A DNA stretch of 56,014 nucleotides from a virus: positions 1 to 56,014 of IMG/VR virus record IMGVR_UViG_3300049046_000063; one strand, 5' to 3'. The translations under genes and the position numbers were made by a program. The notes under the pieces are model-generated. The model saw nothing but the letters and a program-made list of their open reading frames with translations. It did not search any database and had not been told where the DNA came from. Shown here one piece after another: positions 3,895 to 56,012 of this stretch. The stretch's first letter is position 1, and the number at the start of each line of letters is the position of its first letter.

Positions 3895-3941
3895 TGGCAT
3901 GAGCCGAGCAGGACTCGAACCTGCGACCCACTGGTTAAAAG
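3895..3941 (-). other. attP: attP core: 3' half of a tRNA-Lys(UUU) gene
   Basis: Read on the minus strand, this stretch contains an anticodon loop (CUUUUAA, anticodon UUU), the 3' strand of the anticodon stem (CCAGT), a full T arm (GCAGG / TTCGAGT / CCTGC) and the 3' acceptor strand TCGGCTC plus discriminator A. The matching 5' anticodon strand, D arm and a regular 5' acceptor are missing. It is therefore not a functional tRNA but the identity block that tRNA-integrating phages carry in attP. Its place 165 bases from the integrase start fits. The expected bacterial attB is the 3' half of a tRNA-Lys gene. Confidence 0.85.
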
Positions 3942-4106: not shown

Positions 4107-5228
4107 ATGCCCCGAGCTCGCACTGGAAGTTTTTGGTATGACCGCAACGGCGATCTGTATGCGCGCGTAACCTGGACCGACTCTAAGGGGAAGGTGCGCG
4201 AGAAACGCAGGAAGTCGATCAGCGGCACGAAGCGCGAGGCGCGCGAGCACATAAAGGAAATTCTCGAAGAGATCGAAGAGCAGGGCGATCAGGCAATCGA
4301 CGCCGCCGGTCTCACCTTCAAACAACTGGTCGACCACTACAAAAACAACTACGCGATCGAGGCTGAATACGATCGCAAGGGAATTAAGACTGCAGGAATG
4401 CGTTCGTGGAAAGATGCGCGCCGAAAGGCTGAGGCCTTGCTTGATTACTTTGGCCCAAAGAAGCGCGTTCGAGATTTTACCTATGGCGACCTCTCGCGAT
4501 TCAAAGCCGCGCGCATTAGAACTCCAAAGCGAACCGGCGGCGCGCGTCAGATCGCCAGCGTTCATCGGGAGCTCGAAATCCTCAGACGAATGTTTCGCAT
4601 TGCTGTTCAAAGCAGATGGTTGCGGCTCAGCCCGTTCAATGAAGGAGATCCACTGATTGAGCAGGCCGAAGAGCACCAGCGCGAGCGCATCGCGACGAAG
4701 GAAGAAGAAAGCGCCTTGCTCGCAGCCTGCGACGAAGACGAACGCCGCAAGCACCTCAGGCCGTTTTTGATCCTGGCCTTCGATACCGGCTTTCGACCGA
4801 TTGAAATGAAGTCGCTCACGGTCAAAGATGTCGACTTTGAAGATAACTGTATTTGGGCCGTGTCCTACAAAGGCAAGCGCATGAAACGCCGGCCGTTCGA
4901 CATGACCGCGCGCCTGCGAACGGAAATGCAAAAACTCTGCGCGGGGAAAAGACCCGGCCAACTGGTATTTGGATTCAAGTCCGTGAAGCGATCCTTTGCG
5001 ACCGCCAAACGCGTTGCGGCAGAGAGAGGCATTGACATGAAAGGCTTTCGCCTGTACGACGCGCGCCACACGGCGACTACGCGACTGGTGCGCCGGGGAA
5101 TGAGTCTCGAAGAAACTGGAAAGCTGATGGGCCATTCTCAACCTAAAACCACCTGGCGTTACATGCACGTCGACAAGTCGCGTCGGCGCCGCGCGGCTGA
5201 ATTGCTCGAGCAGGAAGATGAAGATTAA
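4107..5228 (+). CDS. int: Tyrosine integrase (site-specific recombinase)
   Basis: This enzyme catalyses attP x attB recombination into tRNA-Lys. Residues 1-60 form an arm-binding AP2-like domain (GSFWYDRNGDLYARVTW). Residues about 70-190 are the SAM-like core-binding domain, and 195-365 the catalytic domain. Catalytic residues seen: R230 in TGFRPIEM, the second box YDARHT (R320, H321; tyrosine replaces the first histidine, as in many integrases), LMGH near 343 and the nucleophile Y352 in WRYMH. Length (373 aa) is normal and nothing is truncated. It is the only plus-strand gene in the left arm and converges with the excisionase-like gene, overlapping it by 4 bases. Confidence 0.95.
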   Translation: MPRARTGSFWYDRNGDLYARVTWTDSKGKVREKRRKSISGTKREAREHIKEILEEIEEQGDQAIDAAGLTFKQLVDHYKNNYAIEAEYDRKGIKTAGMRSWKDARRKAEALLDYFGPKKRVRDFTYGDLSRFKAARIRTPKRTGGARQIASVHRELEILRRMFRIAVQSRWLRLSPFNEGDPLIEQAEEHQRERIATKEEESALLAACDEDERRKHLRPFLILAFDTGFRPIEMKSLTVKDVDFEDNCIWAVSYKGKRMKRRPFDMTARLRTEMQKLCAGKRPGQLVFGFKSVKRSFATAKRVAAERGIDMKGFRLYDARHTATTRLVRRGMSLEETGKLMGHSQPKTTWRYMHVDKSRRRRAAELLEQEDED

Positions 5229-7712: not shown

Positions 7713-8130
7713 ATCGCCTCACGTTCATGTTGTGGCCGGTGATGAATACTCGCGCACGACCGCTTCGGTCATACTTCGGAAAGGAATGCCCGCAGCCGCA
7801 GCCGCACGGGATTACAGGATTAGGATCGCCCTTCCTGCGCCGGTCTCGCGCGGTTGGATGGTGCAGCCTCATATGCGCCGAGCGGTTCGGGAGAGGCTCT
7901 ATATTTGACGGCGAGTTATTGTTCTTAATCTCATCCTCGTGGTGGGCTATTTCTTCTGACGTAAGGTAGCGGCCCATCTTTTCAGCGGCTACCAAACGAT
8001 GCTCGTATGCGTAGCCGCGCACGTCGGCCATCGGGTGATCTTTACCTACGCGGATGAGTACGTAACCGTCCTGTGTGACGGTTCGCCCGCCCTTCCAATT
8101 CCCGTTTGCTGGTCCTGTTGCTTTGCCCAT
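7684..8130 (-). CDS. HNH endonuclease (free-standing)
   Basis: The core YEHRLVAAEKMGRYLTSEE leads into HHEDEIKNNNSPSNIEPL and then HMRLHH. This matches the HNH family common in phages, where the motif supplies the beta-beta-alpha-metal catalytic site. An N-terminal NUMOD-like strand region (GYVLIRVGKDHP) precedes it. The C-terminus adds a CGCGCGHSFP zinc knot and the phrase FITGHNM seen in such nucleases. Start ATG 8130 with GGGGAA upstream. Being free-standing within an operon, it may be a homing nuclease; there is no sign of an intron. Confidence 0.8.
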   Translation of the reverse strand: MGKATGPANGNWKGGRTVTQDGYVLIRVGKDHPMADVRGYAYEHRLVAAEKMGRYLTSEEIAHHEDEIKNNNSPSNIEPLPNRSAHMRLHHPTARDRRRKGDPNPVIPCGCGCGHSFPKYDRSGRARVFITGHNMNVRRYGRYEDRVV

Positions 8131-8134
8131 GATT

Positions 8135-8776
8135 TTAATTCCCCGCTCTATGCGCTCGTGAACGACTGCCCTTCTGTTTGGCGTGGTCCGTGATAGAAGG
8201 AAGATCAGGCTTTGGTGCTTCAGGCGCTACGGGCTCAACTGCTTTGCCGTTCCCGGCCTTAACAACCTTTACTTCCCGCTCAGCTTTTGGTTTGCCATTC
8301 TCTTCGAATAGTGGGAGGTCTTTGGTTGCTTTCAGAACGCGTTCAATTTCATCGTTCCATGCTCCGTAGTGCGCAAGGTTCGCATTGAAGAGTCTCGCAT
8401 CGTATTCCATGATCGACGGTCTGCCGGTTTCATCGTCATAGATAAGTCGACACAGTTGAGAATCGATCAAGGCTTCGCGGATGTCGGCCTTCAGGTTCAT
8501 CCACGGCATTCGATAGACCTTCAAGACAACTACGGGCATTGGTCCATCATCATCAGTACGGGCCTCACCGGAAATCAAAAACGCTGCATCGCTGCTCAAT
8601 ACTTTAATTTCGGCGAATACCTGGTGGCCTTTGCTCTTTTTGGAAACTGACGATCCTTTATCGTCTTTCTTGTCCAGCATTAGATAGTGAATTCTTTTCG
8701 AGTAAAGATCCGGGTGATGTCGCTTGATTACTCCCTCTGCTACTTTTGCGACTTCAGAACTTATTTCGTATTGCAT
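8135..8776 (-). CDS. Degenerate phage metallopeptidase-like protein, probably inactive
   Basis: Residues 1-150 follow the plan of the putative phage metallopeptidase family: an N-terminal helix with HHPDL, beta strands, then a zinc helix and a closing HD...F...G.W block. The active plus-strand relative at 28454-29065 reads HELYH and HDVSEF. Here the corresponding positions are SQLCR (about 106-110) and YDARLF (125-130), so the HExxH zinc site is lost. Residues 150-213 form a charged proline-rich tail. The fold probably survives as a binding protein. RBS GAAAGGATGG in front of ATG 8776. Confidence 0.7.
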   Translation of the reverse strand: MQYEISSEVAKVAEGVIKRHHPDLYSKRIHYLMLDKKDDKGSSVSKKSKGHQVFAEIKVLSSDAAFLISGEARTDDDGPMPVVVLKVYRMPWMNLKADIREALIDSQLCRLIYDDETGRPSIMEYDARLFNANLAHYGAWNDEIERVLKATKDLPLFEENGKPKAEREVKVVKAGNGKAVEPVAPEAPKPDLPSITDHAKQKGSRSRAHRAGN

Positions 8777-8794: not shown

Positions 8795-10189
8795 TTAGGC
8801 TGTGGCGAATAACAATCCCTGTTTCGTAACTGCTTCAATTCTTCGCTGGGCTAACTGGCAATACTCCGCGCTCAATTCGATTCCTATAAACTTCAACCCT
8901 TCCAGCATTGCTGCTTTGCCAGTGCTTCCCGATCCGCAGAATGGATCTAGAACGATGCCGCCCGGCGGCGTAACCAGTCGGCAGAGATACCGCATTAGAT
9001 CAACCGGCTTCACTGTTGGATGATGATTCTTGCGAAGACCTAAACCGCGATTGCGAGGATTATCGCCGCCTGGGTTTCCCTCTTTGCGGCTGTCGTCTTG
9101 CTGGCGTGATGTGAGACTTTCCAGCCCTTCCTCGCGATCTTCTTGACTTGCCTTCGCCGCGTAGAAGAACCGTGCTGCAGATCCCGAATCCAAACGGGCC
9201 ATCGCATCGCGGGCCGCTTTCATATCGCCAAAGACGCCTTTGGATAATCGATCTTTGCCGTGCCCGTTTAGATCGCCTTGCTGCCCCGGCGCATCAGGGA
9301 ACGCAGCCAGCACTTCATCTGATCCGTCCGTGATGACGTTCGCGGGCCAGCGCCCTAATTCGTTTTGCTCTGTGCGCTGTTCGGTCCAGCCGCCCTCGTA
9401 AACATCTTCTGGCCGCTGCTCGCATGCGCCGCGCCAGTTGCCATTTCCCTTCGCGCCGTCGACGCGGCATCCGTCGATATTCAATCCACCCGTTCCGTGC
9501 TGTAAGACGTTTTCAGCAACGGTTCCGATCAGTGGTTTGCGCGCCAACACAATTGGCTCGTGTGCGGGTTTTAATGCTGTGCCCCAGCCGTTCCATTGCT
9601 TCGCTGCTTCCGTCGCTGGAGCGCTTAGCAGACGATCATCCTGAGAACGAACGAACGTTCCGATTGGCGGTGCCAACCTGTCTTCACTGCTGCGCTGGAT
9701 GTGACCGCCAGCGTATTCACGGATGCCCGTTACTTCACGATTCGCGCCCGCTGCTGCATCAATCGCCTTGCTCACGTCCAGCGATTTAGGAAATCCCGAT
9801 CCGTAAAGCCATTGAATCTGATCGCGGATCTCAAACCCTGCTTCTTCAATCGCACAAGCTAAGCGGTGGTAAGTACGGGAGCCTCCGAATGCGAGCAAGT
9901 GACCGCCGGGCTTCAGAACGCGCAAAACCTCAGCCCACGTTTCCGGCATAAACGGAACGCCTGATCCGTCCCACGCCTTCCCCATAAATCCTGTAGTGAT
10001 GCGGGCGCGACCTTGCGGCGTATTCAGATTCACGGATGCCTCTCCGGTGCCGCCGCGCTTGTTCGCGGTCAGTTCATAGGGCGGATCGCACACAACAGAA
10101 TCAACCGAACAGTCGGACAGGTCTCGAAGCACGATCCGGCAATCGCCCTCGTACAAGCTAAATCGATCTGACTCGTAATACGGTTTCAC
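8795..10189 (-). CDS. Orphan DNA methyltransferase (beta-class, N4C/N6A type)
   Basis: Catalytic motif IV DPPY lies at residues 35-38. The SAM-binding motif I (DPFCGSG) comes near the C-terminus at about 415-421. This order is typical of the beta class that methylates exocyclic amino groups. A large middle section (about 150-370) should contain the target-recognition region. No restriction enzyme is nearby, so it is an orphan, likely protecting phage DNA from host restriction. The start is GTG 10189, overlapping the previous TGA as GTGA. Target sequence cannot be read from the protein. Confidence 0.92.
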   Translation of the reverse strand: MKPYYESDRFSLYEGDCRIVLRDLSDCSVDSVVCDPPYELTANKRGGTGEASVNLNTPQGRARITTGFMGKAWDGSGVPFMPETWAEVLRVLKPGGHLLAFGGSRTYHRLACAIEEAGFEIRDQIQWLYGSGFPKSLDVSKAIDAAAGANREVTGIREYAGGHIQRSSEDRLAPPIGTFVRSQDDRLLSAPATEAAKQWNGWGTALKPAHEPIVLARKPLIGTVAENVLQHGTGGLNIDGCRVDGAKGNGNWRGACEQRPEDVYEGGWTEQRTEQNELGRWPANVITDGSDEVLAAFPDAPGQQGDLNGHGKDRLSKGVFGDMKAARDAMARLDSGSAARFFYAAKASQEDREEGLESLTSRQQDDSRKEGNPGGDNPRNRGLGLRKNHHPTVKPVDLMRYLCRLVTPPGGIVLDPFCGSGSTGKAAMLEGLKFIGIELSAEYCQLAQRRIEAVTKQGLLFATA

Positions 10190-21984: not shown

Positions 21985-23004
21985 ATGAAACCTCTTGTAA
22001 ACGTAGATGAATTGCGAAGGCTGATGCCGCGCTTATCGCTGATGAAAGCGGTTGAATACGCACCGATGTTGTCTGCGTCGATGATCGAATTCAGCATCGT
22101 CAGCAAGAAGCGCCGCTGTGCTTACCTCTCACAGTTAGCGGTTGAATCCGAGCAACTCAACCACTGGACAGAGAACCTGAATTACTCCGCTCACCGCCTC
22201 ACCCAAGTCTGGCCGCATCGGTTTCCGTCAGTCGCCGCCGCCGCGCCGTACGCGATGAATGCCGAAGCCCTCGCTAATAAGGTGTACGGCGGGCGCATGG
22301 GTAATACGAAACAAGGCGACGGATGGAAGTATCGTGGGCGCTTCCCGATCCAGGCCACCGGCGGCGAGATGTACCGGAAGCTGGCCCGCGCGTTGAGGGT
22401 GCCCGGGCTGATTACGAATCCAGATTCATGTTTGGCGGATAAGCTGATCGGATTTCGAGCTTCAGCATGGATATTCGCGGTGGAAAAGGGCTGCAACCAA
22501 CTGGCAGACAAACTCCGGATGGATGGCAGCGCACATGATCGTTCAATCCTCACGGAAATCTGCGAGCGCATCAACGGCGGCCACACGGGATTATCAGAAC
22601 GCCTCAACTACTTCCGCATCGCAAAACAAGTGCTGCACAATGACGATGATTCAAACTCACCAATCGCCCCACCTACAGCACGACCCGCCGAATCAGTACA
22701 TGAACAAGAAGAATCAGAATCAGCGGCAAATAGCCAAGCAGACCCGGCAATAGTCTCAGCAGAACCCGGTCAAGATCTGCTTGGCGCCGCTGTGCATTCA
22801 GATAAAGCGAAGAAGGTTGGTTTGAGTCTCGGCGCGCGCGTTATGAAGCATTCGAGTGCCGGCGCCACATGGCTGTGGGCGTTGTACGAGGCCAACAAGA
22901 CCGGATTCATTGTTGTGGTCCTGGTCCTGATTGCTGGTGTTTTGTGGCTGGCCTATCACAACCGCAAGAAGCTCGCGCCGCATGTTTTGAAGCTGTTGAA
23001 ATAG
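21985..23004 (+). CDS. GH19 (chitinase-like) endolysin with C-terminal membrane anchor
   Basis: Residues 45-215 are a glycoside hydrolase 19 domain that cuts the peptidoglycan glycan chain. AYLSQLAVESEQ holds the proton donor E54, TENLNYSAHRL supplies E63, and KVYGGRMGN, GDGWKYRGR and INGGHTGLSERL follow. A proline/glutamate-rich linker (220-265) leads to a C-terminal transmembrane helix (about 306-326, TGFIVVVLVLIAGVLWLAYH) with a basic end. The anchor is at the C-terminus, unlike SAR endolysins. Two tandem AAACCTCA words lie before the start. Small membrane peptides follow, completing a lysis cassette. Confidence 0.88.
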   Translation: MKPLVNVDELRRLMPRLSLMKAVEYAPMLSASMIEFSIVSKKRRCAYLSQLAVESEQLNHWTENLNYSAHRLTQVWPHRFPSVAAAAPYAMNAEALANKVYGGRMGNTKQGDGWKYRGRFPIQATGGEMYRKLARALRVPGLITNPDSCLADKLIGFRASAWIFAVEKGCNQLADKLRMDGSAHDRSILTEICERINGGHTGLSERLNYFRIAKQVLHNDDDSNSPIAPPTARPAESVHEQEESESAANSQADPAIVSAEPGQDLLGAAVHSDKAKKVGLSLGARVMKHSSAGATWLWALYEANKTGFIVVVLVLIAGVLWLAYHNRKKLAPHVLKLLK

Positions 23005-51240: not shown

Positions 51241-52167
51241 GTGCACCTTCCAACTCCGATCGACATGATGCACTTGCCTGCTTTGCAACGAGCAGACGTA
51301 CAAGTGTTCACGACCGACAATCGAAACCTCAACTGGCAGTCATGGGTTAAACCGCGCGGGATTACAATGTGCTTCATGTTTGTCGTTTCTGGCGGTGGTG
51401 GTGGTGGTGGTGGTTGTACCAGGGTAGCAGGAAACGCGGGCGGCGGCGGTGGTGGTGGTGCTGGAGGTGCATCTACTCGACTGCTGCTCCCTGCATATTT
51501 CCTTCCGGATGAGTTATACATTCAGATCGGCCTTGGCGGTCCGGGCGGCGCTCCCGGCGCTCTCGCGGGTAACGGGACAAACGGCGGCGACACGGCAATC
51601 TCACTCGGACGTAGTAATGCGTCACCTAATGTCATCCTCGCCACAAACAGCGGCACGGCGGCCGGGGGAACCGGAGGTAATACCGGCGCAGGCGGCGGCG
51701 GTGGCAGTGCGCCATCAGCGCCAAACGCCACAGCTCGAGCAACGTGGGGCTTTGTAGGCTCAGTAGCGGGAATCGCTGGCGGAAGTGGCGGCGCTCAGAC
51801 CGGAGCGATAGGCTCTGCTGTTTCTACTGTTTGGAATGCAACATTGATTAGTGGCGGTGCTGGCGGTGCTGGCTGTACGTCGAGCGACTTCGCCGGCGGT
51901 GCAATTACACTTCAGGGAACACCGGACTTTTCGGCAACATCATTGACCGGCGGTGCAGCAGGCGGTGGCGATGGCAGTGCGGGAATTCAACTCTGGCAGC
52001 CGTTACTTATGACTGGTGGCTCGGGTGGTGGATCAAACAACTCTGGAGTCGCTGGGAACGGCGGCAAGGGTGGTATCGGCTGTGGCGGCGGTGGCGGTGG
52101 CGCGGGAGCCACTGGCGGTCGCGGAGGCGATGGCGGCAACGGAATGGCCGTAATTATTAGCTGGTAA
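51241..52167 (+). CDS. Polyglycine-rich adhesin (308 aa)
   Basis: Start GTG 51241. After an N-terminal domain (about 1-48, HLPALQRADVQVFTTDNRNL) the sequence alternates glycine runs (GGGGGGGG near 51, GGGGGGGAGG near 67, and about six more) with short hydrophobic loops. This is the pattern of phage receptor-binding tips with a polyglycine-II helix sandwich, such as the S16 gp38 adhesin. In such proteins the loops between glycine runs contact the receptor and vary quickly. As the last tail gene it is the best candidate for the host-range determinant. Confidence 0.75.
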   Translation: MHLPTPIDMMHLPALQRADVQVFTTDNRNLNWQSWVKPRGITMCFMFVVSGGGGGGGGCTRVAGNAGGGGGGGAGGASTRLLLPAYFLPDELYIQIGLGGPGGAPGALAGNGTNGGDTAISLGRSNASPNVILATNSGTAAGGTGGNTGAGGGGGSAPSAPNATARATWGFVGSVAGIAGGSGGAQTGAIGSAVSTVWNATLISGGAGGAGCTSSDFAGGAITLQGTPDFSATSLTGGAAGGGDGSAGIQLWQPLLMTGGSGGGSNNSGVAGNGGKGGIGCGGGGGGAGATGGRGGDGGNGMAVIISW

Positions 52168-52302: not shown

Positions 52303-52464
52303 CTAGCTTGCGTTAGTAGCGTTTAGCAGACGGGTAACGAGATTCGCCCCCCAAGTGCTCTGACTTCCATAAACAGCGATTGCCACAACTGCAATCAATC
52401 CGGCAATCATCGCGTACTCGAGGGTCTCCATGCCGCTCTCATCCTGTAAGAATTTCTTGATCAT
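52303..52464 (-). CDS. Flp/Tad-type pilin 1 (53 aa)
   Basis: The prepilin pattern is exact: a charged leader with KKFLQDESG, the G-XXXX-EY cleavage signature (G11, then METLEY) and a hydrophobic helix (AMIAGLIAVVAIAVY). Flp pilins have the glutamate at +5 of the mature chain, here E16, which is needed for assembly. Mature length would be 42 residues. It shares DESG(M/I)ET(L/I)EYA(M/I)IAG with the second pilin at 52680. No prepilin peptidase or Tad secretion gene is in the window, so the host would have to supply them. AGAAAG lies upstream of ATG 52464. Confidence 0.85.
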   Translation of the reverse strand: MIKKFLQDESGMETLEYAMIAGLIAVVAIAVYGSQSTWGANLVTRLLNATNAS

Positions 52465-52615
52465 GATCCACTTTCTCTCTTTCTGAAATTGAGTTAAACC
52501 GAGTGGGAAGCGTTAGAGCAACGATCATGCCATGTGGAAATACCCAGGAAAATGCAGAGTCGCGCAAGCCCTGCTCAGGGATGGTGAGCGCCAGCGAGCA
52601 GTTGTTGTAATTCGC

Positions 52616-52649
52616 CGCAAAAAGGCGGTCAACCGAAGCTGACCGCCTT
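52616..52649 (-). terminator. Intrinsic terminator after pilin 2
   Basis: Read on the minus strand, AAGGCGGTCA and TGACCGCCTT form a perfect 10-bp stem (52622-52649) with an 8-base loop, followed by TTTTTGCGG. It lies 30 bases beyond the stop of the gene at 52680-52874 and separates the two pilin genes, so pilin 1 needs its own promoter within 52465-52615; I see no strong one there. Confidence 0.85.
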
Positions 52650-52679
52650 AGCCCAAACGGACGCACAACGCCCAGGGAT

Positions 52680-52874
52680 TTATAACCCGGCCCCGCTTAT
52701 GTCCGCGCTCGCCGCGCTCACGAGCTTGTCCTTAATCGCTTGGCCCCAGCCGCTACCGTAAACCGCAACGGCCACGATCGCGACGATCCCCGCGATAATC
52801 GCGTACTCAATTGTCTCAATTCCCGACTCGTCTTTAAGGAAGACAGTGATTGGTCGTAGTATGTGTTTAGACAT
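52680..52874 (-). CDS. Flp/Tad-type pilin 2 (64 aa)
   Basis: A leader of 18 residues (MSKHILRPITVFLKDESG) ends in the class III prepilin cleavage glycine G18, followed by IETIEY and a hydrophobic helix (AIIAGIVAIVAVAVYGS). The glutamate E23 is at +5. The tail (GWGQAIKDKLVSAASADISG) resembles normal Flp pilins, so this copy is the more complete of the two. GGAG lies 7 bases before ATG 52874. The divergent XRE gene and its palindrome suggest regulated expression. Confidence 0.88.
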   Translation of the reverse strand: MSKHILRPITVFLKDESGIETIEYAIIAGIVAIVAVAVYGSGWGQAIKDKLVSAASADISGAGL

Positions 52875-52940
52875 CTTTCTTCTCCTATTCAGAAGTTGGT
52901 GTTTAGGCTCGGTAGGGTGTTGATAGCACCTTGGCGGGCC

Positions 52941-53000
52941 GCTTTATTGAACGATGCCAATGGTATCAAACTATACCAATGGCGTCAAGCGTGTTATTAT
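52941..53000. promoter_or_regulatory. Divergent pilin/XRE promoter region with operator
   Basis: A 28-bp dyad lies at 52956-52983: GCCAATGGTAT, six bases, ATACCAATGGC (10 of 11 pairs). On the minus strand TTGATA (52964-52969) with a weak TAAAGC (52941-52946) at 17 bp could drive pilin 2. On the plus strand a TATTAT -10 (52995-53000) lies 7 bases from the GTG of the XRE gene. The operator covers both -35 regions, so the XRE protein probably controls pilins and itself. Confidence 0.65.
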
Positions 53001-53006
53001 CGCCGC

Positions 53007-53192
53007 GTGGATGGAGACGAACTCAAAGCCTTTCGCGCCAAGGTTGAGATCACGCAGCAGGAATTAGCTGAAGCTCTTGGTGTTGACCGGAACACTATCG
53101 CTCGGTGGGAGCGTAACGAGCGGGCAATCCCGCCCTTTCTTCACTTGGCTCTTCAAACTCTCGAACGACAGAAGAAGTCCTCCAAAAAGTAA
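53007..53192 (+). CDS. XRE-family HTH regulator (61 aa)
   Basis: The start is GTG 53007; the longer frame upstream would run through the operator and pilin leader. The protein is a bare XRE domain: ELKAFRAKVEITQQELAEAL, GVDRNTIARWERNERAIPPF, then a helical end. Such minimal domains bind palindromes as dimers. It is divergent from the pilin 2 gene, and its probable -10 is so near that the message may be leaderless. It is the only regulator near the pilins. Confidence 0.8.
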   Translation: MDGDELKAFRAKVEITQQELAEALGVDRNTIARWERNERAIPPFLHLALQTLERQKKSSKK

Positions 53193-53220
53193 AGACCGCC
53201 AGCCCCGACGCTGACGGTCT
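53193..53220. terminator. Hairpin after the XRE gene
   Basis: AGACCG/CGGTCT and CAGC/GCTG pair around single mismatches, right after the XRE stop (which ends at 53192). On the minus strand TTTACTTTTT follows, so it would terminate leftward transcription as well as close the XRE unit. Confidence 0.6.
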
Positions 53221-53453
53221 CAAAGGATTTCCACCCGGTAACGAAGGATTCACTTTTTCTTGCCTGTCGGCTTTGCTTTCGCCTTCGGCTTTGTAGTGGT
53301 CTTCGTTGACAGTGTCTGAATTCTGTGTGTATGCTGCGCCTAGTTATTTGAAGGCAGGGCGGGCATCGTTCCTTGCCAGTCATGAACAGATGGACCACGC
53401 ACCAACGGATGCGCATCGCAACGGCGAATGCGAACTAGATCAGACGATCCCGG

Positions 53454-54317: not shown

Positions 54318-54323
54318 GCGCTG

Positions 54324-54399
54324 AATATACGTGACCGCTCACGAAAAGTCTACCGCTATTTGCTTGACGATACGTGAGCGGTCACGTATAATCGTGAGC
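54324..54399. promoter_or_regulatory. Divergent promoters with the same operator in both spacers
   Basis: Plus strand: TTGACG (54364-54369), 17 bp, TATAAT (54387-54392), with CGTGAGCGGTCACG (54373-54386) filling the spacer. Minus strand: TAGACT (54347-54352), 17 bp, TATATT (54324-54329), with the inverted copy CGTGACCGCTCACG (54330-54343). Another CGTGAGC half-site lies at 54393-54399 and one GCTCACG at 54457-54463. One protein should close both promoters. Confidence 0.8.
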
Positions 54400-54483: not shown

Positions 54484-54520
54484 TTTTGAGCCAATCGCCC
54501 ACGAAAGGCAAGGCTCAAAA
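54484..54520 (+). promoter_or_regulatory. Hairpin over the transposase start codon
   Basis: TTTTGAGCC (54484-54492) and GGCTCAAAA (54512-54520) form a perfect 9-bp stem whose last base is the A of the ATG. The purine-rich GAAAGG (54503-54508) lies in the loop. The fold would hide the start codon while exposing the ribosome site, so translation could be limited, as is common for transposases. Confidence 0.6.
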
Positions 54521-55470
54521 TGACCTGTCACAACTGCAAGATTGCTGCCGCCAAGTTTGGCAAAGACCGCTACGGTAATCAGCGTTACAAGTGCAAGCAA
54601 TGTCGAAAGACGTTTCAGGAAATCAAAGACAAGATGCTGGGCACGATGTATCTGCCCGAAGCAAAGGCGCTCATGGTCCTACACATGCTTGTCGAGGGTA
54701 ATTCTATCCGCTCAATCGAGCGTCTGACTGGCGTCAACCGAAACACGATTATGAGTTTGTTGGTACTCGCCGGTGAGAAGTGCGAGCGCGTAATGGATAC
54801 CTATCTCCGCAAGGTTCACGTTCAAGACGTACAGGCAGATGAGATCTGGAACTTTGTCGGCATGAAAGAAAAGACGAAAGTGCGCAAGGGTTACGCCAGC
54901 GACTATCTAGGCGACGCATACACCTATGTCGCCTTCGAGCGAAACACTAAACTCGTAATTACTTGGCACCTTGGCCGACGCACAGCCGCTCATACCTTCG
55001 CATTTACTGAGAAGCTATTTAACGCCGTGGACGGAACGACTAATCGCTTTCAGATGACAACCGATGGTCTAGCAAGCTATCCCGACGCGATCAACTGCTC
55101 GCTAGGAATGCGAACGGACTACGCGACTTTGGTCAAAGTTTACGGCGCGCCCGAAGATGACGATCACAAATACTCGCCCAGCAAGATTAAGGAAATAATA
55201 CCAACGCCCTTTTGGGGCAATCCTAATCCTGAAAAAATCTGCACGTCGCACGTTGAAAGGCAGAACCTCAATATCAGAATGGCAATGCGTAGATTCACGC
55301 GGCTGACTAATGGCTTTTCTAAGAAGTGGGAAAATCTGAAAGCTGCGCTCGCGCTATACTTCGCGTACTACAATTTTTGCCGCATTCATTCGAGTATCCG
55401 TTGCACTCCGGCAATGGAAAGCGGAATCACAAAAAGTGTGTGGACGTTGAAAGACTTGCTCGCCGCATAA
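54520..55470 (+). CDS. IS1-family-type transposase, single frame (316 aa)
   Basis: The N-terminus is an InsA-like zinc finger (MTCHNCKIAAAKFGK, then YKCKQCRKTFQE). A HTH follows (IRSIERLTGVNRNTIMSLLV), then the DDE core: D in VQADEIWNFVG, D in TTDGLASYPDA, E in SHVERQNLNIRM, and the final RRFTRLTNGFSKKWEN block. Classic IS1 makes this fusion by frameshift; here both halves are in one frame. No terminal inverted repeats or target duplication are seen, and it has its own promoter and terminator, so it may be domesticated or have lost its ends. Catalytic residues appear intact. Confidence 0.85.
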   Translation: MTCHNCKIAAAKFGKDRYGNQRYKCKQCRKTFQEIKDKMLGTMYLPEAKALMVLHMLVEGNSIRSIERLTGVNRNTIMSLLVLAGEKCERVMDTYLRKVHVQDVQADEIWNFVGMKEKTKVRKGYASDYLGDAYTYVAFERNTKLVITWHLGRRTAAHTFAFTEKLFNAVDGTTNRFQMTTDGLASYPDAINCSLGMRTDYATLVKVYGAPEDDDHKYSPSKIKEIIPTPFWGNPNPEKICTSHVERQNLNIRMAMRRFTRLTNGFSKKWENLKAALALYFAYYNFCRIHSSIRCTPAMESGITKSVWTLKDLLAA

Positions 55471-55885: not shown

Positions 55886-55933
55886 GGGCTGGCAAGTGCG
55901 CAAACACTTGTCGGCCCGCTCCGAAGTGGAGCG
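55886..55933 (+). other. Tandem hairpins at the terminal repeat
   Basis: GGGCTGGCAAGTG and CACTTGTCGGCCC (55886-55917) form a 13-bp stem on the plus strand with two G-U pairs; on the minus strand two mismatches break it. CGCTCC-gaagt-GGAGCG (55917-55933) follows directly. The region is non-coding and lies between the last gene (starting at 55841) and, after circularisation, the end of the leftward operon. Confidence 0.6.
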
Positions 55934-56012
55934 CATCCTAACACCGAAGAGACAGAGGGAAACCGACAAAGAGGCGTCAACACAGAATTAAGCCACTATC
56001 TCTTCGTTCCCT
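55887..56012. repeat. Right copy of the terminal direct repeat
   Basis: It is identical to 1-126 over 126 bases; the last two bases of the window (ac) differ from 127-128 (ta). The contig therefore overlaps itself and represents a closed or terminally redundant molecule of about 55.9 kb. Confidence 0.9.

Follow-up and report, generated by a model that had tools for sequence, protein, structure and literature searches.

Flp/Tad-type prepilin genes in a temperate phage, probably of Pyrinomonadaceae-like acidobacteria, suggest that a virus may alter its host's pili

Tad pili serve both as adhesins and as phage receptors. The Caulobacter Tad pilus is held together by the Glu and Tyr of the pilin signature, which form the hydrogen bonds of its core, and resistance to PhiCb5 could be due to residues at which the pilins of two strains differ (PMC11067988). 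Flp pilin genes are also listed in prophages of Vibrio harveyi (PMC12482185) and of Sinorhizobium meliloti (PMC12429752), so that an earlier annotation of the DNA studied here (the first-pass annotation), which knew of no described phage module of a pilin pair plus an XRE regulator, was too strong if taken to mean that nothing of the kind exists. Two virus records contain Flp genes as well: a 92-kb record (L103) has a lone Flp pilin gene (8001-8177) amid replication and recombination genes (UvsX-like, RuvC-like), and a 77-kb record (L107) places genes for a Flp pilin (8007-8165) and a TadE-like protein (9094-9510) within 1.1 kb. Together with the two prophage listings, these records indicate that the presence of Flp in a phage is in itself no novelty. 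Literature searches for phage-encoded pilins returned the two prophage listings alone, with no account of one that has a host-type sigma-54 promoter, and the sigma-54 pilin cassette described below appears to be new; its interest rests on promoter and conservation, and not on a pilin-XRE module. The phage pilins gave no tblastn match in 50,697 named phage records, a search that low-complexity filtering weakens for short helical queries, and a plasmid control search with an approximate Caulobacter-like pilin query matched 129 records.

Two Flp/Tad-type prepilin genes in a temperate phage

The DNA analyzed (hereafter the window) is 56,014 nucleotides long and spans all of the complete IMG/VR virus record IMGVR_UViG_3300049046_000063. 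It encodes terminase, portal, head, and tail genes, and its exact 126-bp terminal repeat (1-126 = 55887-56012) indicates that the assembly closes on itself, with a unit of ~55.9 kb. Because the probable attP is internal (Table 1), the record represents a temperate phage in its unintegrated state rather than a prophage with host flanks, and the earlier placement of the pilins in an integrated prophage had to be given up. We consider this phage a temperate siphovirus, probably infecting Pyrinomonadaceae-like Acidobacteriota.

Table 1 Features of the window and of matching host loci
Feature	Position	Strand	Evidence or detail
tRNA-Lys(UUU)-like 3' half, probable attP, adjoins integrase	~3900-3941	-	sequence
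Tyrosine integrase	4107..5228	+	PF00589, 79.9 bits
Endolysin gene	21985-23004		
Gly-rich tail protein, end of tail module, left slot border	51241..52167	+	PF21722 Gly_rich_2
pil1, Flp/Tad prepilin, 53 aa, cleavage site DESG↓METLEY	52303..52464	-	PF04964, 35.9 bits
Predicted 5' leader of pil1, 42 nt, identical in L005	52465..52506	-	start from sigma-54 spacing
Sigma-54-type promoter of pil1 (putative), TGGCAT-GATCG-TTGCT	52517..52532	-	consensus match; sole TGGCAYN5TTGCW in window
Intrinsic terminator between pil2 and pil1	52622..52649	-	perfect 10-bp stem (inverted repeat), -27 kcal/mol
pil2, Flp/Tad prepilin, 64 aa, cleavage site DESG↓IETIEY	52680..52874	-	PF04964, 39.3 bits
Imperfect dyad, 28 bp, probable XRE operator	52956..52983	.	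11-nt arms, one mismatched pair, 6-nt spacer
XRE-family regulator, 61 aa, GTG start, divergent from pil2	53007..53192	+	HTH_3, 42.8 bits
Right slot border, DNA common to sister phage	53191..53307	.	75% identity to L061 10019-9890
~75-nt leader element of host pilin genes	L003 9830-9905; L004 12740-12815; L080 about 1325-1400	- (L080)	

The identification of pil1 and pil2 as Flp/Tad prepilins, which had first been read from the letters alone with a proposal to check it against Pfam, was borne out. Both proteins score above the curated cut-off of PF04964 Flp_Fap (32.2 bits), and a six-frame profile search of the window again placed the two genes over this value. The G↓xxxxEY prepilin signature is in register in both pilins with E+5 kept, hydropathy gives one hydrophobic stretch per pilin after the prepilin site, and no such ORF arose in 60 first-order Markov simulations of the window, compared with the 2 observed. 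The pilins are paralogues, as had been noted (28/49 aligned residues identical), and a structure model shows helices with medium confidence (pLDDT 69); the sequences are too short for a pilin tree to tell one acquisition of both genes from two. The phage also lacks TadV, TadA, and secretin genes, in agreement with the first-pass annotation: tblastn with ten Tad proteins of the Pyrinomonadaceae locus L003 recovered the two pilins only, all else being at E 0.4 or worse. With pilins only, the window was rejected as a Tad pilus system that would have TadV, TadA, TadB, secretin, CpaB, and TadE/F/G alongside. An Rfam search of the pilin block gave one sub-threshold match (R1162 antisense RNA, 32.8 bits vs 55), which we took as chance.

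Small single-helix proteins adjoining tail genes might instead be membrane proteins that serve the phage itself, e.g., in lysis or as a part of the virion. We regard such a role as improbable, since both pilins retain a prepilin cleavage site and E+5 that a holin does not need, lie on the other strand from the late genes with promoters of their own, and are accompanied by an endolysin gene elsewhere in the genome (Table 1).

Accessory pilin genes in a variable cargo slot

The first-pass annotation had put the pilins right after the tail adhesin. They do adjoin the end of the tail module, where the neighbor on which they converge is a Gly-rich tail protein. The tail genes preceding this protein match a sister phage (the record of L007; 70,439 bp, circular, with an exact 127-bp terminal overlap), which is colinear with the window on each side of the pilins, and the similarity picks up again exactly at 53191, i.e., at the XRE stop codon. 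From the tail module to the next shared module, the sister phage has ~1 kb vs ~4.2 kb in the window, the latter containing the pilin-XRE block and other genes, and its slot holds different small genes with no Flp gene above cut-off. Conserved phage DNA on both flanks (52167 and 53191) thus identifies the pilins as accessory cargo: they occupy a slot of variable content that separates the tail module from the next conserved one. Their presence or absence at one site in close phages, together with promoters and a terminator of their own, agrees with what defines such cargo (morons).

As the record is an assembled metagenome contig, the block could have arisen by chimeric joining of phage sequence to a host Tad fragment, which the first-pass annotation had named as an outcome that would undo its reading. 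Both flanks of the pilin block match the circular sister phage, and on these shared flanks and the terminal repeat, which closes the genome through the block, a host flank or chimera was rejected. With an independent contig carrying a pil1-type gene at the matching place (L005, below) and pilin GC3 close to that of other phage genes, we consider a chimera very improbable indeed.

The variable region that includes the pilins also has an IS1-like transposase gene (54520-55470; PF03400, barely over cut-off), which could have aided the arrival of cargo. Between it and the gene for a small basic protein is an imperfect inverted repeat (54320-54395) whose CGTGACCGCTCACG / CGTGAGCGGTCACG motifs are probably regulator binding sites.

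An alignment search of IMG/VR recovered one further locus, L005, a 10.3-kb fragment of a distinct phage with distantly related tail genes (the large tail protein is 25% identical); a direct search of IMG/VR with pil2 gave no match, L005 having come from the alignment search only. Its pilin is a pil1 ortholog, likewise convergent with the end of the tail module, and the window phage and L005 are all the phages in which a pil1-type pilin was found. Over the first 32 codons, the two genes differ by 18 base changes, 14 of them in third positions and with 1 residue change, and none of 5000 random placements of these changes gave as few residue changes. That 18 base changes altered a single residue indicates that the protein, and not merely the DNA, has been kept, so this codon comparison shows protein-level conservation of pil1 across two phages; part of the selection may predate capture, in a host.

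The same comparison bears on whether the pilins are passengers, i.e., host genes captured recently and without benefit. Mobile DNA sometimes moves tad clusters, the pilins are highly similar to host pilins (61-63% identity), and the sister phage does without them, all of which would suit passengers. The marked predominance of silent changes in the pil1-L005 comparison, even with some of it possibly dating from hosts, and the identical 42-nt leader described below argue the other way, and we think a passenger origin unlikely.

Separate control of the two pilins and the pilins of the probable host

A 28-bp dyad between pil2 and the divergent XRE gene, and a clean terminator between the pilin genes, had been reported earlier, and both were recovered (Table 1). 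The dyad overlaps the sigma-70-like promoter hexamers of pil2 and is the probable XRE operator, an arrangement which strongly suggests that pil2, unlike pil1, is repressible by the phage XRE protein. The XRE protein also passes PF08965 Aca2_YdiL (27.8 bits, cut-off 23.8), a family that includes anti-CRISPR-associated repressors. The proposal that the pilin pair and XRE gene form one module did not survive a search for the trio in related phages: L005 has the pil1 type only, with no XRE gene seen beside it, and the phages of six XRE relatives have no Flp gene. A conserved pilin-pair-plus-XRE module was rejected on both grounds.

The first-pass annotation overlooked a sigma-54-type promoter before pil1, which links this gene to host pilin promoters and not to XRE. 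The site begins 68 nt upstream of the gene and matches TGGCAC(G)-N4/5-TTGCW at 11/12 positions, and TGGCAYN5TTGCW occurs once in the 56-kb window against 0.1 expected. L005 has a perfect site (12/12), its sole one, likewise at -68 before the pilin, and pil2 has no sigma-54-type site upstream. From the usual sigma-54 spacing, transcription is predicted to start ~42 nt upstream of pil1. Both phages have the same 42 nt preceding the ATG, and the DNA immediately upstream differs; similarity between the phages starts at the -24 element, so that the unit common to both is promoter, leader, and gene. The leader core has its only exact match in IMG/VR in L005, and no copy with up to 3 mismatches was found among 396 Acidobacteriota genomes.

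Several observations bear on the host. Patterns made from pil2 and run against 84,980 bacterial and archaeal species reached only two Pyrinomonadaceae genomes. The search for host Tad loci with matching pilins, as the first-pass annotation had proposed, was successful in this family, where the pilins precede genes for TadV, RcpC/CpaB, secretin, TadE, TadA, and TadB in a complete locus. With the Tad pilin of L003 (Pyrinomonadaceae), pil1 shares 63% identity and pil2 61% over 46 aa, compared with 44-52% for the next-best pilins among the 396 Acidobacteriota genomes. The attP core occurs with at most 1 mismatch in 39/119 Pyrinomonadaceae genomes, weak support for such a host given that tRNA-Lys is widely conserved. 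No prophage with the major head protein of the window phage was found in the 119 Pyrinomonadaceae genomes, and portal relatives in Acidobacteriota are only 24-27% identical. The host is probably a Pyrinomonadaceae-like soil acidobacterium.

Sigma-54-type sites (10-12/12 positions; shuffle P 0 to 0.02) also occur upstream of ETxEY-type pilins. Host pilins with strong upstream sites (10-11/12 positions) are those of L003, L004 (both copies), and L080, all of ETxEY type, and many GLELSEY-type pilins tested had no strong site. In L003 and L004, the Tad cluster is preceded by a gene for a sigma-54 activator (bEBP); RpoN was found in 2/3 genomes with ETxEY-type pilins, and the RpoN model had no match in G043, the MAG with the closest pilin. 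Promoter function at pil1, L005, and the host pilins is deduced from sequence. These matches strongly suggest that pil1 has a promoter like the ones before matching Tad pilins of the host, and with such a promoter pil1 would switch on with host pili.

The leaders of host ETxEY-type pilin genes share a ~75-nt conserved element (GAAATGNTGCCGTGATC...TCAGGTTTCCTGAGATGACGCC) that is able to form two hairpins and is represented by three distinct sequences. No Rfam family matched it with an E value under 1, and a sub-threshold microRNA match falls outside the leader; the element is possibly a new regulatory RNA.

Proposed role and comparison with known pilins

Our full reading, to which we assign roughly an even chance, is that the phage adds host-type Flp prepilins to the host Tad pilus and thereby changes adhesion or phage reception. 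The host prepilin peptidase (TadV/CpaA) would cleave pil1 and pil2 C-terminal to the glycine, and their mature helices would be polymerized into the host Tad pilus to give mixed pili; we infer both cleavage and entry into the pilus because the prepilin site is kept and because of the work in Caulobacter (PMC11067988). pil1 would be made alongside host pili and pil2 when the phage repressor permits, and the prophage would benefit from altered adhesion or from a pilus surface that looks different to pilus-binding phages, i.e., lysogenic conversion or superinfection exclusion. The first-pass annotation had likewise suggested that the pilins may alter adhesion or keep out pilus phages, and also that they may act as decoys. 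More tentatively, and doubtful at present, the two genes may act as a two-step remodeling system, in which the host pilus programme would add phage subunits to every new Tad pilus through the sigma-54-type promoter of pil1, with the second pilin reserved under the phage repressor, which would shut out rival pilus-binding phages or alter attachment.

The main rival to this reading, ahead of passenger genes, is a dominant-negative effect, in which the pilins would be processed and then poison or cap assembly or retraction of the Tad pilus, so that the lysogen loses its pili and phages their entry route. Such an effect would fit a phage that has pilins alone and none of the Tad machine, pilins that keep the assembly helix but have C-terminal ends unlike those of the host, and a divergent repressor that would permit dosing. 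However, no sign of blockage is apparent in the sequences, in which the assembly residues G, E+5, and Y+6 and the helix are all retained, and a sigma-54 promoter timed with the host pilin suits co-assembly equally well. We therefore rate a dominant-negative effect as possible but unlikely.

If the mixed-pilus reading is true, a phage could simply remake the entire receptor surface of its lysogen by supplying subunits in time with host pilus expression, with no pilus machinery of its own, and it would become possible to study how phages influence the attachment of soil acidobacteria, for which we know of few phages. The sigma-54-type promoter gives a clear prediction, open to a reporter assay.

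Compared with known members of the Flp/Fap family (type IVb/IVc Tad pilins, e.g., Caulobacter PilA), the phage pilins have in common the size, G↓xxxxEY, E+5, and single helix, and Caulobacter PilA (PDB 8u1k) has a weak profile match to a phage pilin (E 0.036); unlike that family, pil1 and pil2 are phage-encoded and away from any Tad locus. The V. harveyi and S. meliloti entries resemble our locus in having a Flp gene within a prophage, but in the excerpted parts of these sources they appear as a virulence-factor homologue or COG entry only, without discussion of promoter, selection, or synteny (PMC12482185, PMC12429752). L103 and L107 are likewise Flp_Fap matches in virus records, but of other pilin types in unrelated phages, and L107 also has TadE. 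Host pilin genes of Pyrinomonadaceae have a long leader with the conserved RNA-like element and stand before TadV-CpaB-CpaC, whereas the phage leader is 42 nt long and is missing this element, so regulation would not be identical. Even so, the Tad pilins of Pyrinomonadaceae (L003, L004, and L080) are of the ETxEY type with upstream sigma-54-type sites, as in the phage.
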